NCBI GenBank assembly: GCA_902756345.1
Contig: CACVQR010000002.1
Span: forward strand, 186,001 to 250,000
From: Fibrobacter succinogenes
GTDB taxonomy: Bacteria; Fibrobacterota; Fibrobacteria; Fibrobacterales; Fibrobacteraceae
DNA: 64,000 nt
Direction: 5' to 3'
The translations under genes were made by a program, and so were the position numbers. Shown here in pieces: positions 7,016 to 54,025 of this stretch. The notes under the pieces were generated by a model. The model worked only from the letters and a program-made list of their open reading frames with translations. It was not told the DNA's origin and made no database searches. How positions within the stretch are numbered: the first letter of the stretch is position 1; each line of letters starts with the position of its first letter.

Positions 7016-7041
7016 CTTTTCTTTTTTTAGAGCGGGAAAAG
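7016..7041. repeat. 26-bp direct repeat matching the 3' end of tRNA-Gly(GCC)
   Basis: Matches 7486-7511 exactly. The shared sequence is a T-rich stretch followed by AGCGGGAAAAG, the last 11 nt of the tRNA gene read from the complementary strand. The two copies bracket about 445 nt of hairpin-rich, gene-free DNA. Confidence 0.85.
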
Positions 7042-7118
7042 CGTGCTAAACGAGTGTCGCGACAAAATGCTCGCATTTTGTCTTGACCGAGTGACGCTGC
7101 GGACGCCGTAGGCGTCAA
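7037..7118 (+). repeat. Type C hairpin repeat, copy 1
   Basis: The element has flank AAAAGCGTGC, then CGAGTGTCGC, a perfect 10-bp stem GACAAAATGC/GCATTTTGTC (7061-7082), TTGACCGAGTGACGC and a second hairpin GACGCCGTAGGCGTC. The same blocks occur at 53259-53340 (reverse) and, in shorter form, at 49029-49075. Stem sequences differ between copies but remain fully paired. Confidence 0.8.
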
Positions 7119-10241: not shown

Positions 10242-12947
10242 ATGCAGTCTGTAAAAAATCATATTCTTTCGCTGATGTTGTTCGCGTTGCTTTGTCTTGC
10301 AGCGGGGGCTTTTGCGCTTGAATCTATTGATTGCATTGACTACAGTGGCAAGCCCGACGTGCGTTGCAAGTATTACCGTATCTCGGAAATCCGAGGCGCC
10401 ATTCTTTACGTGGTTCCGCCCGAAGCCGACCTTGTCAAGAAAAACGCCATCAAGGGTGCTTCGTTCTTTATCTACGCTCCGCAAGAAAAGGACTATGGTC
10501 GCGACACCTTGACTCTTGAACTTTCGAAAGATTCCTCTGTCGTTCACAACATGGAGCCCGTAAAAGCCGATGAGGACTCCGGTCTCGTGAAACTGCGCGT
10601 CGGAAGTCGCTATAAGCTTTACAACCTCATGCTCGGTACTGCCGAAGACGAATCGGCAACGGATCCGATCGTAAGCCTGGTCTACAACTTCTACGTGCCG
10701 TACCTCAAGTACATTGTGAAGGGCAAGGAAGTGACCGATGCATCCAAGCTCCAGTACGAAGTGGGCGATACCATGCATGTCGATGTCGAAGCGATTGTTC
10801 CGATTGGCCCGGCAAAGGGACGAGTCGATTCGACTCTGACGAAAACTTTCTATTTCAAGGCTTTCGGCGAAAGCGAAAACCTGGAGTTCTTGAGCGATGG
10901 TGGAGTAAACCTGAAGCTAAGTGACAACACCATTCGCTTAAATATTGAAAACGGCAAGGGCCGGTTCCTGGTGGTTGCGACCAAGGCCATTACCGACGGT
11001 TCGACGTTCAGCATGAATGCGTTCCCGGATAGCCTGCGTAACAATGAATTCATTCTGAGCGATCCGTTCCCGGGTGAATACCAGTTCGTGAATCCCGACA
11101 TGCCGACTCTCGATAACGCCGCCATTTACGATACCGACGGCGATGGTATTGGCGACAGCATTGCGACCTGGTTCGGCGGCAAGACCGATTCCATGGATGT
11201 GAAGGATTTCTTCTACAGCTGGCCGAGCGACAAGTCCTTTGAAAAGTACAGTGGCGATGTCAAGCAAGATGGTGATGTCTATGGATTGCCCGATGTCAAG
11301 GTTGAAATTCAGGGTGACGATGCGAAGGGTGTCGTAAAGGCTTTTGTGTGCTCGGTGGGTAACCGCTGTGACACGCTCACGACGGCTCTTGCCGATAGCA
11401 TTGGCGCAGCCATTCAGACGGCCACCTTGGTCAAGGGCAATGACGGGACGGATACCTTGATCGTTCGCTTCAACAAGGATATGGATCCGTCTTGGACAAG
11501 CGGTCGCGGATTGAAACTCAATGGCGAATCAATCGACGTGGATGCAATCTCCAAGAAGGGAACCCAGTGGGCATTCACCGTGGAATCAGGCGTTGTGTCT
11601 GTGGGTGACATGCTCAAGATTGAAACCATCTGCAGCAGCAAGGAATGCCCCGATGGAATCCTGACTGCCGCCGACGGTGTACCGACAAGCAAGAACAACC
11701 AGGAAGTCCCTGTGCAGAATGCTGGCCGCATTTATGTGGACAACGACAAGAACGGATTCTATGACCGCGATGGCGATGGCCGCATGGACTCTACCTCGCT
11801 GGGCTTTGAAACCCCGATCACCGAGGAAGACCTCAAGAAGATGGACATTACCTTCTACTGGCTCGACAACGACGGCGAATTGGTGGCCATCAAGCCGAAC
11901 ATTGCCGACCTCGAGATTTCGGAAGGCGGTACGCTGCTTGGCTTTGCTCTTGATCCCGAAGAATACGACATCAAGAAATTGCTGACGGGAATTGACAAGT
12001 CCTATTCAAAGGACGGCAAGACAGAATACGGCTATGCCTCGATTACAAACAAGGTTTCTGTCGAAGGCAAGGAATCCGAAGAAGAAATGATGTATGGAAT
12101 GAACGACTACATGGCTCCGGTCATTTCGTCGACGTTCCTGTATCCGGAATCCTTCCAGATGATGGAACCGGATAAATTCAAGATCAGCTTCTCCGAAGCG
12201 ATGGACAAGAAAGGCGTGGATCTTTCCGATGACTGCCTCGCTTTCTATGTCGATGGCGCCTGGGTGCATTACAGCCTGAGGTCTTCGGAATGGAGCGAAG
12301 ACGGTCGCGAATTGATGCTGTACATGGAAGCCGGCGAAGACCTCGCAAGCCGCATGAATCCTGCAGACTCAGTGCGTTTCGATAACTTCACGAGCGGTCT
12401 TGTCGACAAGAGCGGCAACAAGGTTTCTGAACTTGCTCCGACTGTCATGGTGGAAGGCGATCCGCGCGTGATTATGAAGACGAATTCGTTTGCGGACTTG
12501 AACAAGGCTGAAGAACTCAGTGACCGCGTGAAGCCGTTTACGATTGAACATGTGAAGGATGCCAAGGAAGCCTCTGACCAGTCTTCGCTGGGCGTGCTCA
12601 TGGATATCGGCTATTCGACCATTATGGGTAAAGATGACAAGGGCCTGACTGTGCCGAATATGGAAGATATCGGACTCCATTGGGAACTCTACGTGTATAC
12701 GAATATTGGCAACTACGTTGGAGGCGCTTCGGGCAGTATTGCTTGCGATGACCCGTTCTTCGATGGCAACTGCCTTGAAAATCCGGACAAACTCTATGTT
12801 CGTTGGAACATGCGTGCCGACAATGGCCGTAAGGTGGGCGCCGGTATTTATCTTGCAAAGTTCAGAGTAAAGGTTTACGGAGCAAAGGATGACTTTAAAG
12901 TTGAAAGAATCTTTAGATGGGGTATCTCTTCTAAGAGGGCTAAATAA
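10242..12947 (+). CDS. Large exported protein with calcium-loop motifs and FlgD-Ig-like C-terminus
   Basis: About 901 residues from the ATG at 10242 (ribosome site TAGAGG). A Sec signal peptide is clear (SLMLFALLCLAAGAFA). The body has Asp-rich loops resembling calcium-binding repeats, DTDGDGIGD and DNDKNGFYDRDGDGRMD, inside Ig-like strands. The C-terminus (VRWNMRADNGRKVGAGIYLA) resembles the FlgD-type Ig domain seen at the ends of exported proteins. The next gene encodes a longer paralog with the same C-terminal plan. A GTG eight codons upstream would extend the frame but has no ribosome site. Function is unknown; cell-surface or outer-membrane-associated is the inference. Confidence 0.75.
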   Translation: MQSVKNHILSLMLFALLCLAAGAFALESIDCIDYSGKPDVRCKYYRISEIRGAILYVVPPEADLVKKNAIKGASFFIYAPQEKDYGRDTLTLELSKDSSVVHNMEPVKADEDSGLVKLRVGSRYKLYNLMLGTAEDESATDPIVSLVYNFYVPYLKYIVKGKEVTDASKLQYEVGDTMHVDVEAIVPIGPAKGRVDSTLTKTFYFKAFGESENLEFLSDGGVNLKLSDNTIRLNIENGKGRFLVVATKAITDGSTFSMNAFPDSLRNNEFILSDPFPGEYQFVNPDMPTLDNAAIYDTDGDGIGDSIATWFGGKTDSMDVKDFFYSWPSDKSFEKYSGDVKQDGDVYGLPDVKVEIQGDDAKGVVKAFVCSVGNRCDTLTTALADSIGAAIQTATLVKGNDGTDTLIVRFNKDMDPSWTSGRGLKLNGESIDVDAISKKGTQWAFTVESGVVSVGDMLKIETICSSKECPDGILTAADGVPTSKNNQEVPVQNAGRIYVDNDKNGFYDRDGDGRMDSTSLGFETPITEEDLKKMDITFYWLDNDGELVAIKPNIADLEISEGGTLLGFALDPEEYDIKKLLTGIDKSYSKDGKTEYGYASITNKVSVEGKESEEEMMYGMNDYMAPVISSTFLYPESFQMMEPDKFKISFSEAMDKKGVDLSDDCLAFYVDGAWVHYSLRSSEWSEDGRELMLYMEAGEDLASRMNPADSVRFDNFTSGLVDKSGNKVSELAPTVMVEGDPRVIMKTNSFADLNKAEELSDRVKPFTIEHVKDAKEASDQSSLGVLMDIGYSTIMGKDDKGLTVPNMEDIGLHWELYVYTNIGNYVGGASGSIACDDPFFDGNCLENPDKLYVRWNMRADNGRKVGAGIYLAKFRVKVYGAKDDFKVERIFRWGISSKRAK

Positions 12948-24909: not shown

Positions 24910-25548
24910 ATGCCTAAAACACAGATCAATCTCGAAGGTTGGCAGGATTACCGCGGCAACGCTGCCGGTAGCTTGCTCTACGTCGAAACCAGCCACCAGT
25001 CCGAAATGCCGGTCCGTGACCAGCTGAACGAAAACGGTAAGGGTTTCCTTTATGAACCCAACTACGAAACCAGCACCTATGGTCTGATGAGCTGCTATAA
25101 CGTGAAGGCGATTAATGCAATCCTCAAGGCAAAGAGCCGTTACATTCTGTTCGGCACCCGTTACGAAGGCCTGAGCGATTCCGAACTCCGCAACAAGTAC
25201 CTGATTATGGGTTACATGCGTATCGACAAGATCAAGGACGTGCGTACCCGCCACATCCAGCGCTACATGGCCAACCCGGAACTTGAAGAACCGGAATGCA
25301 TGCAGATGGAACACAACTGGGCTGTCTATGGCCCGATGCGCTTTGTCTCGATGAACGATGCCTTCGTGGTGACCGATGAAATCCTCAAGGAATGGGGCTA
25401 CCGCGGACATGCCAGCCGTCAGCTCAAGGCTGTGTTCAAGAAGGAACATCTGGAACAGATTCTTTCTTACCTTGATTCCAAGGACGACATGATCGACGAA
25501 TACATCGCGACGGTCGACGAATACAAGGAAGCTCTCGAAGAAGGGTAA
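24910..25548 (+). CDS. Conserved-looking cytoplasmic protein of unknown function
   Basis: I do not recognise this 212-residue protein. It has no signal peptide or membrane helix, is rich in Tyr, Met and charged residues, and uses the codons of the highly expressed ribosomal genes here, so it is probably well expressed. Features are LEGWQDYRGNAAGSLLYVETSH near the start, a central KYLIMGYMRIDKIKDVR and an acidic helical C-terminus. It has its own leader hairpin and a strong terminator, so it is transcribed alone. Confidence 0.75.
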   Translation: MPKTQINLEGWQDYRGNAAGSLLYVETSHQSEMPVRDQLNENGKGFLYEPNYETSTYGLMSCYNVKAINAILKAKSRYILFGTRYEGLSDSELRNKYLIMGYMRIDKIKDVRTRHIQRYMANPELEEPECMQMEHNWAVYGPMRFVSMNDAFVVTDEILKEWGYRGHASRQLKAVFKKEHLEQILSYLDSKDDMIDEYIATVDEYKEALEEG

Positions 25549-25568
25549 TGGACGTTGCTTGCGTAACG

Positions 25569-25600
25569 AAAAAAAAGCGGGCTTTAAGCCCGCTTTTTTT
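25569..25600 (+). terminator. Intrinsic terminator
   Basis: AAAAGCGGGC TTTAA GCCCGCTTTT with a T7 tail, 20 nt after the 212-residue gene's stop. Confidence 0.92.
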
Positions 25601-25604
25601 GTTG

Positions 25605-25657
25605 AGTAGGAAGTAGACGGCCGACAGTAGAAAGAAAAATACTGTCTACTTCCTACT
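25605..25657. repeat. Inverted pair of minisatellite-type units
   Basis: AGTAGGAAGTAGAC (25605-25618) and its exact complement (25644-25657) face each other across 25 nt. They are built from the same AGTAGGAAGTAG words as the array at 1246-1384. Confidence 0.8.
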
Positions 25658-25666
25658 TCTAACTTC

Positions 25667-27778
25667 CTACTTTTTTATCGCTTTCACCGTAGCGTTTTTC
25701 GTCTTCACGAGGTACATGCCCTGGCGCAGCTCGAGACGGAGTGTGCCGTCGGCGTTGAGGGCCGCTCCCTTGAGGCCGCTCCACACGAGATTGCCGTTCA
25801 GGTCGAAGACTTGTGCAGGCATGTTGCGGTCGTTGAACACGAACTTGGGGGCCTTGATGATGCCGCTAGAAGAACATCCCGTGGCCACGATCTTTGCGAT
25901 GTAGATTCCTGTTGCGTCACTGTTGAAGGTGAGGGCGGTAGAGCCGTTATCGCCTTCCTTTTCGAGATCCACAGTGGTTTCGCTCCACTTGCCTGCGGCG
26001 GCGGTGCGGCCGTACTGGTAGTCGACCCAGCTGCCACCGTTTGCGGCACCCACGTTCACGTAGGCGTTGGATTTGTCCTGGCTACGCATGGTAATCACCA
26101 GTTCGGAGCAGTTTGCCAGTGCGGCGGCACTTTCTTCGCTGATGTTCACGAGCTGGCTCTTGTAACCGCATTCGGCCTGTTCGCAACCGGCGAGCGGAAT
26201 GTTTACGTAACCGGTAATGCCGTCGAGTTCGCCGGCTTCGTAGGTGACGGCGCCGAGGTCGTCGCTCATGGCCTGCCAGGTGGAAACGTCGGTGGTCTTG
26301 GAGTAGTCGAGAATCACAACGTCTGCAGACGGGGTGATGACCGGTTCAGAGTAGTTCGGGTCGGTCGTTTCGTCTTGGCAGGCGGCGACGGTCGGGGCGG
26401 CAGCGGTCTTGGTGAGAACAAGCGTTGTCACCGAGCGGGCCGGGAGCATATAGCAGCTGGCGATGGTGATGTTCTTGCTCTTGAAGCCGTTTTCCTTGGA
26501 CTGTACTGCGGTTGCGACGTTCATGTTGCTGATTGCCGGAGCGTCAAGCTGAATGGCGGTCTTGCCAGTGTTGATGACAATTACGGAGATGGAGTCGCCG
26601 GAGGCGCTTGCGAAGGCGACCGTCTTGAGGTCGTTTTCGGTGGTGGTGGCAGAAATTGCCTTCCAGCCCGGATTCACGAACTTGGAGTAATGACGCATGG
26701 CGTGGTATTCAGGGCCAATCACGATTTCGTCTTTTTTGCAGCTGCCCCAGCCTTCGGTGCAAACGCCGATAAGCTGGCCGCGGCCTTCGCCCCAGAAGAG
26801 CTGCCAGGCGATGTAGCCACCGAGCTGACCGTCGGTAAAGCCGACCTGCATAATGTGGGCGAGACCCACCATGTCTTCTTCGCGAGTCTTGTCGAGCATG
26901 TTGCAGAACTCGGTCATAATAATCGGCTTGCCTTTGCCGCCGTAAGTGGAACCGATAGCCTTCATGGCCTTGCGGTAGTTTTCGGGAGCGAGGTAGTTGT
27001 TGCCGGAGTTGTCGTTGCCGTCACCGGCGTGATACAGGTGGTAGGCGTAGCCGTCCAGCTTGTTGTCGTCGAGTTCCTTGGCGTACTTTTCGAAGTTGCT
27101 GTAGCCAATACCGAGCGGCTCGGGGCCCAAAATTTTGGTAGTGCCCTTCACGGCGTCATAGACTGCATTCAAAGCTTCTTTGTAGCCGGCCGCTGTGTCT
27201 GTTTCGGTGGGGTTGAACAGGGTTTCTTCGTAGTCGGCATTCATGTCCGGTTCGTTCTGAAGGCTGATGTAGTCCGGTGTGATACCCGCGGCCTTGTAGG
27301 TTTCGAGGCTCTTTTTCCACCAGGCGGCAAAGTCACTGTAGGCGTAAGCACCGTAGGCATCGCCACTGACTTTTTTCAGGGAGTTGTCGGCCGAACTTGA
27401 ACCGTCCTTACCGTTCACGCTGCCGCTCGGCTTGAGGTTGCCCGGTGCAGACCAGCTGGACATTTCGATCTTCACGTGGTTGCCAAGGCGCTGCTTGGCT
27501 GCCTGCACGATGGCGATGTCGTCTTGGCTTACCTTGGCGGTATCGGCCTGGAGCCAGTTGCCCACGCGCAAAAGAGAAAGGTTGAGGCCCGTGAAGGCGG
27601 TGTCAAAAAGGGCTTCCTTGTTTTTGTCGGCAAGTGCCGTAATCCAGCTCTGGTAATAAACGGAAGCGCCGCCGAAACCGACAATTTCTTGCTTGGTTGC
27701 GGTCGGGTCGACGGTGATGTTTGCTGCAGAAGCGATTGTGGCTGCAGCGAGGGCTGCAGTAGTCATTTTTTTCATCAT
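25667..27778 (-). CDS. Secreted GH30 family glycoside hydrolase (xylanase-like)
   Basis: About 703 residues from the ATG at 27776-27778 (ribosome site GGAG 8 nt ahead). A signal peptide (MKKMTTAALAAATIASA) is followed by a GH30-type (beta/alpha)8 barrel with side beta-domain, up to about residue 460. The acid/base Glu is in LQNEPDM (about E176) and the nucleophile Glu in IMTEFCNM (about E290). A Thr/Pro/Asp-rich linker and a beta-sandwich carbohydrate-binding-like domain (about 490-640) follow. The last 55 residues (MPAQVFDLNGNLVWSG through GMYLVKTKNATVKAIKK) resemble a type IX sorting domain. Related enzymes cut glucuronoxylan; exact specificity is not deducible. Confidence 0.88.
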   Translation of the reverse strand: MMKKMTTAALAAATIASAANITVDPTATKQEIVGFGGASVYYQSWITALADKNKEALFDTAFTGLNLSLLRVGNWLQADTAKVSQDDIAIVQAAKQRLGNHVKIEMSSWSAPGNLKPSGSVNGKDGSSSADNSLKKVSGDAYGAYAYSDFAAWWKKSLETYKAAGITPDYISLQNEPDMNADYEETLFNPTETDTAAGYKEALNAVYDAVKGTTKILGPEPLGIGYSNFEKYAKELDDNKLDGYAYHLYHAGDGNDNSGNNYLAPENYRKAMKAIGSTYGGKGKPIIMTEFCNMLDKTREEDMVGLAHIMQVGFTDGQLGGYIAWQLFWGEGRGQLIGVCTEGWGSCKKDEIVIGPEYHAMRHYSKFVNPGWKAISATTTENDLKTVAFASASGDSISVIVINTGKTAIQLDAPAISNMNVATAVQSKENGFKSKNITIASCYMLPARSVTTLVLTKTAAAPTVAACQDETTDPNYSEPVITPSADVVILDYSKTTDVSTWQAMSDDLGAVTYEAGELDGITGYVNIPLAGCEQAECGYKSQLVNISEESAAALANCSELVITMRSQDKSNAYVNVGAANGGSWVDYQYGRTAAAGKWSETTVDLEKEGDNGSTALTFNSDATGIYIAKIVATGCSSSGIIKAPKFVFNDRNMPAQVFDLNGNLVWSGLKGAALNADGTLRLELRQGMYLVKTKNATVKAIKK

Positions 27779-48081: not shown

Positions 48082-49023
48082 ATGTACTACGAAAGCATCA
48101 AAGTTTTGGATTGCACCATCCGCGATGGCGGCCTGGTGAACAAGCACGACTTCTCCCTTGAATTTGTGCGTCGCCTTTACACCCTCCTGTCTGCCGCCGG
48201 TGTGGACTATATGGAAATGGGTTACAAGAACTCTCCGGAACTTTTTGACCCCAAGGAATACGGTCCGTGGAAGTTCTGCGACGATGACCTGCTCTGGAAG
48301 GTGAAAGACGGTATCGATTCCAAGATCAAGATGGCCGTGATGGCTGACGTGGGCCGCGTGAACATGGACGCCGTGAAGCCCGCGAGCGAAAGCCCGTACC
48401 AGATGTTCCGCGTGGCAAGCTATGTGAAAAACATCGACAAGGGTATCGAAATGGTGAACGCCTTCCACGACATGGGTTACGAAACCACCCTGAACATCAT
48501 GGCTGTGAGCCGTGACCGTGGCCCGGAACTCGACGAAGCCCTGCACCAGGTGAACGAAGAATGCAAGGCCGACGTGCTTTACTTGGTGGACAGCTTCGGT
48601 GCCTTCTACCAGGAAGACATCGATAAGGAAATTACCCGCTACCGCGGTATCGTGAAGGGCAAGAAGTTCGGCTTCCATGGCCACAACAACCAGCAGCTGG
48701 CCTTCTCCAACACCATCCAGGCTATCATCGACCACGTGGACTACCTCGACGGTTCCGTGTCCGGCATGGGCCGCGGCGCCGGCAACTGCACCACCGAACT
48801 CTTGCTCGGATTCCTCAAGAACCCGAAGTACGACCTTCGCCCGGTGCTTGACGCCTACCAGGAACTCTTCCTCCCGCTCAAGGAAAAGTACGAATGGGGC
48901 TACATCATTCCGCAGATGATTACGGGTATGCTGAACCGCCACCCGCAAGACGCCATCGCCGTCCGCAAGACCGAAGACCGCGACAACTACACCAAGTTCT
49001 ATAATCATATGATGAACGACTAG
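48082..49023 (+). CDS. DRE-TIM metallolyase (HMGL/4-hydroxy-2-oxovalerate aldolase-like)
   Basis: The 313-residue protein begins MYYESIKVLDCTIRDGGLVN; DCTIRDGG is the metal- and substrate-binding signature of the DRE-TIM superfamily, and FGFHGHNN supplies the two His ligands. SGMGRGAGNCTTELLL completes the barrel. The family includes isopropylmalate synthase, HMG-CoA lyase and 4-hydroxy-2-oxovalerate aldolase; the short length without a C-terminal domain favours an aldolase or lyase. No catabolic partner genes are nearby, so the substrate is unknown. Codon use is like that of highly expressed genes here. Confidence 0.8.
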   Translation: MYYESIKVLDCTIRDGGLVNKHDFSLEFVRRLYTLLSAAGVDYMEMGYKNSPELFDPKEYGPWKFCDDDLLWKVKDGIDSKIKMAVMADVGRVNMDAVKPASESPYQMFRVASYVKNIDKGIEMVNAFHDMGYETTLNIMAVSRDRGPELDEALHQVNEECKADVLYLVDSFGAFYQEDIDKEITRYRGIVKGKKFGFHGHNNQQLAFSNTIQAIIDHVDYLDGSVSGMGRGAGNCTTELLLGFLKNPKYDLRPVLDAYQELFLPLKEKYEWGYIIPQMITGMLNRHPQDAIAVRKTEDRDNYTKFYNHMMND

Positions 49024-49028
49024 GAGGC

Positions 49029-49075
49029 GAGCGTCGCAGGAACAAGCTAGCTTGTTCCTATGACCGAGCCGACGA
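49029..49075 (+). repeat. Type C hairpin repeat, copy 2 (short form)
   Basis: GAGCGTCGCA, the perfect 20-nt palindrome GGAACAAGCTAGCTTGTTCC (49039-49058), then TATGACCGAGCCGACGAG. Compare GAGTGTCGC...TTGACCGAGTGACG at 7037-7118. Confidence 0.65.
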
Positions 49076-49151
49076 GTCATGGGCTCGCGTAGCGAGACCA
49101 ACGATTAGGAGTGAATGCCACGACGGCAAGTGTGGCGAGTTTATCTAAGTA

Positions 49152-53049: not shown

Positions 53050-53108
53050 CCTACCGCCTACAGTCTACAGTCTACTTCCTACTTCCTACTTCCTACTTCC
53101 TACTATCT
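53050..53108. repeat. Minisatellite-type array, CTACTTC units
   Basis: Seven-base units CTACTTC repeat without gaps through 53072-53100 after CTACCGC and CTACAGT variants. It reads as the complement of the AGTAGGAAGTAG words at 1246-1384. Confidence 0.85.
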
Positions 53109-53129
53109 TCTACACAACTAGATTCTTCC

Positions 53130-53219
53130 GTGAGCAACAAAGCCCCAGGCGTTAAGCTGGGGCGGTTGCGAGAGAGAGGCGATGTCACGTTTAATGAATG
53201 TTATAGAGCCGAACGGACT
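53130..53219 (+). repeat. Type A hairpin repeat, copy 3
   Basis: GTGAGCAACAAA, hairpin GCCCCAGGCGTTAAGCTGGGGC, GCGAGAGAGAGGCGATG, spacer, TATAGAGCCGAACGGACT. Its hairpin stem differs completely from those of the other copies but is equally well paired. Confidence 0.85.
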
Positions 53220-53223
53220 TTCC

Positions 53224-53393
53224 GTGAGCAACAAACGCCTCGTATTGACGAGGCGTGGTTGACGCCTACGGCGTCCGCGGCTTCACTCGGTCATGAAATT
53301 ATGCAAGCATAATTTCGCGACTCTCGTTTTGCACGCTTTTGCGAGAGTGAGGCGAAGCTGCATGTTTATGAAGGCTATAGAGCCGAACGGACT
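53224..53393 (+). repeat. Type A hairpin repeat, copy 4, with type C element nested inside
   Basis: GTGAGCAACAAA and hairpin ACGCCTCGTATTGACGAGGCGT match the other type A copies. The following GCGAGAGTGAGGCGA block is pushed 80 nt downstream by a type C element (53259-53340), after which the type A end TATAGAGCCGAACGGACT completes it. The last 19 nt also encode the final codons of the AT-hook protein on the reverse strand. Confidence 0.8.
53259..53340 (-). repeat. Type C hairpin repeat, copy 3
   Basis: On the reverse strand: AAAAGCGTGC, CGAGAGTCGC, the 10-bp stem GAAATTATGC/GCATAATTTC, ATGACCGAGTGAAGC and GACGCCGTAGGCGTC. Compared with the copy at 7037-7118, three stem positions differ and each is compensated on the other arm. 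Confidence 0.85.
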
Positions 53394-54025
53394 TTTCTAG
53401 GTCTTCCGCGGCCGCGCTTTACGGGAGTTCCGTCGGGCATCACGGTTGCTTCCGGGTGCTTGGCCTTAAAGAAATCCTGAATCTTCTTGGCGCGTTCTTC
53501 GGCTTTTTGCTTGGCGAGGTCTGCGGCCGATACAATCACGGCCTTGGGCTTGTCGCCGCCTTTAAAGCCGAACGACGCCTTGAGAACGCGGCCCGAGGCG
53601 GGCTTCGGAGGTTCCGAAATCATGGACTTGGGGGCGCTGTTCAAGGTCGCCTCTTTAAGCTTGTAGCTCGAAAAACTCGGGCTTTCTTGCGTGAAGGCGG
53701 TGTTCAGCATTTTCTGCTTTTCGGCCGAAAGTTCGCCGAACGCGGGAATTCCCGGGATGGCTGCCTTGGGCTTGAAATACAGGTCGCCCTGCTTGGGAAT
53801 CGAACCGAAGATCTCGTTCGCGATGCTCTGGGCTTCTTGGTATTCCTTTTGCTGCTTCTGGGCGAGGCGGTCTTTCTTGGAGGGTCTGGCAGCCCCGTTC
53901 TTGCGTTTTCCGCTAAAATCCCTCTTTTTCTCGGAATTCTGGATGATTTCTTCGTCAGTGAGTCCGCGGAGTTCCGGCGGAACTTCGATGATTTGGAGTG
54001 CGATGTTAGACAAATTCTGATCCAT
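53375..54025 (-). CDS. Basic protein with C-terminal AT-hook, unknown function
   Basis: Unrecognised 216-residue protein. It has no signal peptide. The N-terminal part (IALQIIEVPPELRGLTDEEI) is followed by a charged, low-complexity region (KKDRLAQKQQKEYQEAQ), an alanine/lysine-rich helix and, near the C-terminus, KRGRGRPRKVR, a canonical AT-hook core (RGRP) that binds the minor groove of AT-rich DNA. A nucleoid or transcription-related role is therefore plausible. The last five residues and the stop (V-R-S-A-L-stop) are encoded by the end of a type A repeat, so the repeat has replaced or extended the original 3' end. Confidence 0.72.
   Translation of the reverse strand: MDQNLSNIALQIIEVPPELRGLTDEEIIQNSEKKRDFSGKRKNGAARPSKKDRLAQKQQKEYQEAQSIANEIFGSIPKQGDLYFKPKAAIPGIPAFGELSAEKQKMLNTAFTQESPSFSSYKLKEATLNSAPKSMISEPPKPASGRVLKASFGFKGGDKPKAVIVSAADLAKQKAEERAKKIQDFFKAKHPEATVMPDGTPVKRGRGRPRKVRSAL

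Follow-up and report, generated by a model that had tools for sequence, protein, structure and literature searches.

In a 64-kb stretch of Fibrobacter succinogenes DNA (the window) we find four copies of a repeat whose folded shape is kept while its sequence changes from copy to copy, and on balance we favour the reading that these are short, non-coding, mobile REP-like repeats that act as folded single-stranded DNA and are recognised by their shape. One DNA strand would fold into a first hairpin (hairpin 1), usually followed by a second (hairpin 2) on the same strand; a structure-reading enzyme acting in trans would then recognise this shape together with a few fixed unpaired features, with the arm sequences free to change as long as pairing is kept. 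Most insertions of such units would be at gene 3' ends, in many cases overlapping the stop codon or immediately following it, and would leave the order T-hairpin 1-T'-hairpin 2-T, in which T is the host gene's own end and T' its reverse complement. The features of the window are as follows:

7037–7118, plus strand: complete 82-bp unit of the long type, comprising hairpin 1 (model match 7040–7102) and hairpin 2
7061–7082, plus strand: variable hairpin tip of the first copy, 22 nt, a perfect palindrome with loop CTCG
7102–7116, plus strand: hairpin 2 of the first copy, GACGCC-GTA-GGCGTC, with a GNA triloop
45047–45105, minus strand: fourth, diverged copy, in which GAA/TTT replaces GTC/GAC
48082–49023, plus strand: host gene whose 3' end carries an element (Pfam HMGL-like, PF00682)
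49017–49079, plus strand: hairpin 1 of the array type, the left arm of which holds the stop codon (49021–49023) of the HMGL-like gene
49038–49059, plus strand: variable hairpin tip AGGAACAAGCTAGCTTGTTCCT
49080–49100, plus strand: hairpin 2 of the 49017 copy, triloop GTA
49100–49111, plus strand: second copy of the gene end, AACGATTAGGAG as compared to AACGACTAGGAG at 49015–49026
53259–53340, minus strand: complete 82-bp unit of the long type, comprising hairpin 1 (model match 53275–53337) and hairpin 2 (53261–53275)
53295–53316, minus strand: variable hairpin tip GAAATTATGCTTGCATAATTTC

All three copies reported by a first-pass annotation are present, whilst the fourth had been missed. The window contains the motif GTCGC-N{14,40}-TGACCGAG exactly three times, against 0.04 occurrences expected, and none of 100 shuffled sequences reached three. 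As that annotation had claimed, the stems differ in sequence in each of the three copies and yet are fully paired (GACAAAATGC/GCATTTTGTC, AGGAACAAGC/GCTTGTTCCT and GAAATTATGC/GCATAATTTC), and all three tips are perfect palindromes. The two 82-bp units have 70 of 82 bases in common; exactly three pairs differ between the first and the third copy, each on both sides (CG>AT, AT>TA and AT>TA), so that the three compensated changes originally described are borne out, and hairpin 2, GACGCCGTAGGCGTC, is identical in both long copies. Eight copies of this long subtype in the same genome align with one another over 82–86 bp only. Around the third copy (window 53050–53400) there is another hairpin-rich array, in which a stretch of the kind GTCCGTTCGGCTCTATA..CATTCAT..CGCCTC..CTCTCGCA occurs twice and is followed by short AGGAAGT-type repeats. 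Separately, Rfam models matched both strands of an inverted-repeat stretch at 25539–25684, weakly and below threshold.

Read 5' to 3' on the folding strand, hairpin 1 consists of an outer arm (P1), a short loop, P2 and then a G.A and an A.G mismatch; inward of these lie one pair, one unpaired base, three pairs, a step of G.T plus C.A and finally the tip. P2 is often GGC/GCC, with GCC/GGC, AGC/GCT and ATC/GAT also found, and the single bulged base was T in 41, A in 23, C in 22 and G in only one of 87 copies. The three-pair segment is GTC/GAC in 48 of the 87, with GCC/GGC, CCA/TGG, GTT/AAC, GCA/TGC, GAA/TTC and GAT/ATC as further forms: the flanks that had been called conserved are therefore conserved in one subtype, and elsewhere GTC/GAC gives way to GCC/GGC, CCA/TGG, GAA/TTC or GAT/ATC. 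The tip measures 22 or 18 nt and is mostly centred on GCTTGC or GCTCGC; 101 distinct tips occur among 128 copies with a tip of either length, and mismatches inside the tip are mostly G.A, mainly at the second and sixth pair. Hairpin 2 has a plain stem with a GNA triloop and usually lies downstream of hairpin 1 on the same strand. At one site, three loci (L360, L361 and L364) carry a related type devoid of tandem G.A and bulge, GGGTATCAA-GC-tip-AT-TTGATACCC, which exhibits the same GC-tip-AT module with A.G at the second pair of the tip; since this type keeps the module alone, GC-tip-AT may be the innermost module of the element.

The only invariant columns of the broader alignment are GA, GC, AT and GA, which the search descriptor fixes by construction; this descriptor gave 112 matches in 501 kb of element loci and none in the reversed sequence. 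In an alignment of 36 copies 95.3% of cells are paired, with 117 double-change cells as compared to 13–28 in slid registers. For 40 diverse copies the corresponding values are 96.1% paired (32–40% in slid registers) and 214 double-change cells (11–32 in slid registers), with covariation at 17 of 18 pairs. What stays constant is a pattern: tandem G.A, a one-base bulge that is rarely G, the G.T plus C.A step and a perfect tip of 18 or 22 nt. That selection acts on the fold and not on the sequence, as the first-pass annotation proposed, is strongly supported by both alignments and by the 101 distinct tips; what that annotation overlooked is the mobility of the element, the covariation of its flanks and hairpin 2 as a regular partner.

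The repeat is not confined to the window. The source genome (3.36 Mb, 99.2% complete) contains 15 matches to a strict pattern and none to the pattern read backwards, and 79 of the 80 Fibrobacter genomes carry the strict pattern. A covariance model built from the 36 copies (R1) gave 52 matches in the source genome at E<1e-7, rising to 63 when the limit was relaxed to E≤1 (E-values from the short calibration are rough), and found matches in all 80 genomes, from 5 to at least 67 per genome; further copies, with stems that pair, accordingly exist well beyond those first noted. With a broader model (R2) there were, at E≤1e-5, 59 matches in the source genome (G000), 33 in genome G044 and 17 in genome G041. 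Across the phylum 93 of 167 genomes were positive: all 80 Fibrobacter genomes and 13 from five further Fibrobacteraceae genera (1 of 3, 6 of 6, 1 of 1, 2 of 2 and 3 of 3 genomes), with no element in the other genera of the family or in other families under the stricter filters of this 167-genome scan, where weak matches may drop out. A pattern scan of 84,980 species yielded at least 120 stretches; among the matches listed eight are named Fibrobacter, six of which are paired at five or more of six outer positions, and only one of the other 112 reaches this level. This one lies on contig LVAV01000030.1 (filed as Clostridiales bacterium Firm_16), which is probably mis-binned, since it is ~92% identical to Fibrobacter DNA across 4.3 kb. 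Viral contigs gave 27 pattern matches, of which none was paired. Comparison with Rfam, which had been suggested at the outset, matched no family on the element, either at gathering scores or up to E=2. We found no account of such repeats in Fibrobacter in the literature outside subscription papers, and a prior description is possible: the available text of the F. succinogenes S85 genome paper (PMC3079729), supplementary insertion-sequence text aside, contained no such account, and nothing relevant on Fibrobacter was found in PMC12306157, PMC3733652 and PMC2864571.

The position of 133 distinct copies was analysed relative to genes called by codon usage, using a rough caller trained on 12 long reading frames of the window. 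An overlap of over 40 nt with a called gene is seen in only seven copies. Both neighbours run in the direction of the element in 30 cases, converge in 31, both run against it in 18 and diverge in three; for the remaining 51, one or both neighbours were uncalled. Behind a gene in the sense direction lie 76 of the 133 copies, 37 of them with a stop codon within 20 nt of the start of the element, as compared to two of 55 antisense copies, and some copies overlap the stop codon, as at 49021–49023. A replication-strand bias was not observed in the complete genome G144, which belongs to the same family (leading versus lagging, 9 to 7). Elements at five loci of the source genome (L068, L073, L087, L088 and L101) stand behind paralogous genes for serine-rich, lipoprotein-like proteins, with which they seem to have been duplicated. 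Transposase genes were considered as common neighbours and rejected, the shared flanks of the genome's own copies being those of paralogous serine-rich outer proteins.

The sequences around the hairpins follow an order of their own. Within 24 nt behind hairpin 1, 38 of 169 copies carry the left flank again as a reverse complement of at least 7 nt (re-paired controls, 2.1); further down, 18 of 169 carry it again in direct orientation over at least 9 nt (controls, 1.4). Units often read T-hairpin 1-T'-hairpin 2-T, with T the host gene's own end. This order is clearest at two gene ends, that of the gene at 48082–49023 and that of locus L066. At the first site, element-free relatives (L113, L115 and L118) possess a palindromic gene end whose loop contains the stop codon; at the second, relatives (L362, L365, L371 and L372) possess a palindrome around loops of the type GGTAAG-C-GA-TA. 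Since element-free sites hold palindromes, either the element enters palindrome loops or the palindromes are scars, and T' may accordingly predate the insertion, as a palindrome, instead of arising from it. A guide-sequence role, in which T' would choose T as in IS608, is unsupported where T came with the element (the second thrS insertion of G144, and carB). In two hairpin 2 copies of G144 (L315:15780–16060 and 12110–12690) an insert of ~50 nt that itself contains hairpins takes the place of the GTA loop, and hence insertion into hairpin loops may recur.

Mobility is seen in several comparisons. In G144, a second, broken copy of thrS contains two insertions as long as an element that are absent from the intact thrS (Pfam), and each introduces an in-frame stop at its left boundary. 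Of two copies of a carB fragment in this genome one has the element and the other lacks it. The broken thrS and the two carB fragments lie near IS genes (L315 and L316), in two regions that together hold a cluster of 11 of the 16 elements of this genome. In another genome (G028) an element sits inside the left end of an IS200 copy, and in G044, a close relative of the source genome, the 304 bp corresponding to window 53084–53387, element included, are replaced by 7 bp between flanks of 89–97% identity. By eye, hairpin 1 follows the stop codon closely in 16 of 30 genomes at the gene end of 48082–49023, and the element or a truncated or related form is present in 16 of 30 at the second gene end (L066). 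One near-identical core is dispersed over unrelated sites in many genomes. Target duplication was inconsistent, with 0 to ~4 bp in insertions into genes and IS and repeats of 9–16 nt in arrays.

Parts of the element are also exchanged. At window 49017 the source genome and G044 have the same arms and a different core although the gene is 98% identical, whilst G041 (gene 94% identical) has the core of the source genome. Two orthologous elements (L062 in the source genome and L348 in G041) are alike on the outside and differ from P2 inwards; conversely, L084 and L329 have a common core between arms that both differ, with pairing kept in each. The core is the same in six further orthologous pairs, the whole element differs between L103 and L355, L089 and L354 are chimeric with respect to each other, and L071 and L321 differ by tandem gain or loss.

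By what they do, REP elements are the closest known thing. The repeats share with them a short palindrome in many copies, mainly intergenic and between co-directional or convergent genes, and, as far as the available text of PMC8266576 describes group 2 of E. coli (REP/BIME with TnpA_REP, or RAYT), also imperfect, bulged hairpins, a location mostly behind genes and frequent arrays of two hairpins; in the same text the upper stem of REP is non-specific, and it is the unpaired state of the bulge that counts. The part of PMC3733652 available to us adds that REP ends often supply a TAG stop codon, that some REPs lie inside genes and that G.T pairing is often seen in GTAG repeats. In contrast, the Fibrobacter elements have no GTAG or CGTC tag (two alignments show GTAA, GCAA, AGGA, ATGA and others before the stem, none of them invariant), their source genome has no TnpA_REP gene, their stems differ in nearly every copy with G.T nearly absent, and they exhibit tandem G.A, GC/AT steps and an inverted copy of the gene end between the hairpins. 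They fall outside the GTAG/CGTC REP superfamilies, because tag, transposase and conservation of stem sequence are all missing. Hairpin ends, no terminal inverted repeats and scant target duplication are features of the IS200/IS605 family. The likeness to that family (partial text of PMC8266576) lies in two hairpins on the same strand near the ends, the lack of terminal inverted repeats and little or no target duplication in gene insertions. The ends of ten Fibrobacter IS200 (Y1) copies, however, fail the R2 model, with the exception of the one that carries an inserted element. The Y1 transposase itself (PF01797) was not detected in the source genome and was found in 27 of the 80 genomes of the genus, all 80 of which have the element; we rejected it as the carrier, given that element counts are high both with and without PF01797 and that its IS ends are unlike the element.

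The earlier suggestion of a folded RNA or a DNA cruciform can be narrowed: the evidence leans to DNA, in the form of a hairpin in one strand and not of a symmetrical cruciform. Positions within the 101 distinct tips comprise 777 Watson-Crick pairs, 8 G.T, 4 A.C and 34 G.A. G.U pairing accounts for 8 of 684 pairs in the elements (1%) versus 25 of 224 (11%) in 19 distinct tRNAs from the same loci (Fisher p=4e-10), and an RNA helix drifting by point mutation is expected to pass through G.U, whereas a DNA helix is not. Among 56 triloops of downstream hairpins (within 70 nt), 36 are GNA and two TNC, with a closing pair of C-G in 43 and T-A in 12; likewise, the centres of the 101 tips are GCTTGC in 50 and GCTCGC in 16, as opposed to two each for GCAAGC and GCGAGC. 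In DNA, GNA loops and YGAR tandem G.A have particular stability, and the GCGAAGC DNA hairpin is very stable. The given strand is predicted to fold better than its complement in 144 of 172 cases with DNA parameters and in 146 of 172 with RNA parameters, a comparison that favours this strand with both sets and does not separate DNA from RNA. It is because G.U is nearly absent, loops, bulge and G.A are strand-specific, insertions occur in genes and IS and many copies are antisense that we lean to DNA. A structured RNA of 3' untranslated regions, in which a transcribed array would stabilise or terminate the mRNA or bind a protein and RNA pairing would be selected, appears unlikely to us on these grounds: the 76 copies behind a gene of the same direction, the excess of sense copies near stop codons (37 versus 2 within 20 nt), the strand-specific tip centres and the avoidance of divergent gene pairs (3 of 133) would all suit an RNA role, but the G.U content, the 18 copies between two genes that both run opposite, the insertions into coding sequence and an IS end and the lack of any Rfam match to the element up to E=2 speak against it.

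Mobile single-stranded DNA, the reading we prefer, has points against it as well: no enzyme was found, target duplication is not consistent and G144 shows no strand bias, which single-strand transposition may produce. A route that needs no dedicated enzyme would be fold-back synthesis with template switching at replication forks and recombination between neighbouring hairpins, T being copied to T' round hairpin 1 and back to T round hairpin 2. This would account for the T-hairpin 1-T'-hairpin 2-T order, for the chimeras and the tandem gain or loss and for the near absence of G.T, which would follow if one arm served as the template for the other; we nonetheless hold it to be quite improbable, for without a reader nothing would explain why tandem G.A, the non-G bulge and the GC/AT step are kept in six genera, and element-length insertions at fresh sites in genes do not fit it either. 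The attC sites of integrons are folded single strands with an extra-helical base, a variable terminal structure, a position behind genes and complementary AAC/GTT R boxes. By analogy with this anatomy, the conserved bulge and mismatches, the variable tip, the orientation and the position behind stop codons might point to integron-like sites, with free terminal structure, served by a tyrosine recombinase. Such an origin is nevertheless highly implausible, as the integron integrase TIGR02249 was above cut-off in none of the 80 genomes, the invariant columns (GA, GC, AT and GA) hold no complementary AAC/GTT boxes and no gene cassettes lie between neighbouring copies in the stretches examined. A stronger version of the mobile-DNA reading, which strikes us as possible rather than probable, is that of a shape-only element whose tips would be swapped as cassettes between bases, entering the palindrome loops of gene ends and nesting hairpin within hairpin; it would call for a new structure-specific DNA recombinase of the Fibrobacteraceae that requires only the tandem G.A, the non-G bulge and the GC/AT step.

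Covariation by itself would have put these repeats among structured RNAs, and their G.U depletion cautions, more generally, that a hairpin in DNA can show covariation like that of RNA. Whereas known palindromic repeats conserve their sequence, the Fibrobacter family conserves only its shape, specific mismatches included, across 93 genomes. The family thereby amounts to a natural mutational scan of the requirements of a hairpin-reading protein and offers a route to identifying it. It is also relevant to how genes alter their ends and stop codons, in that the units duplicate the host gene's end and can provide the stop codon.
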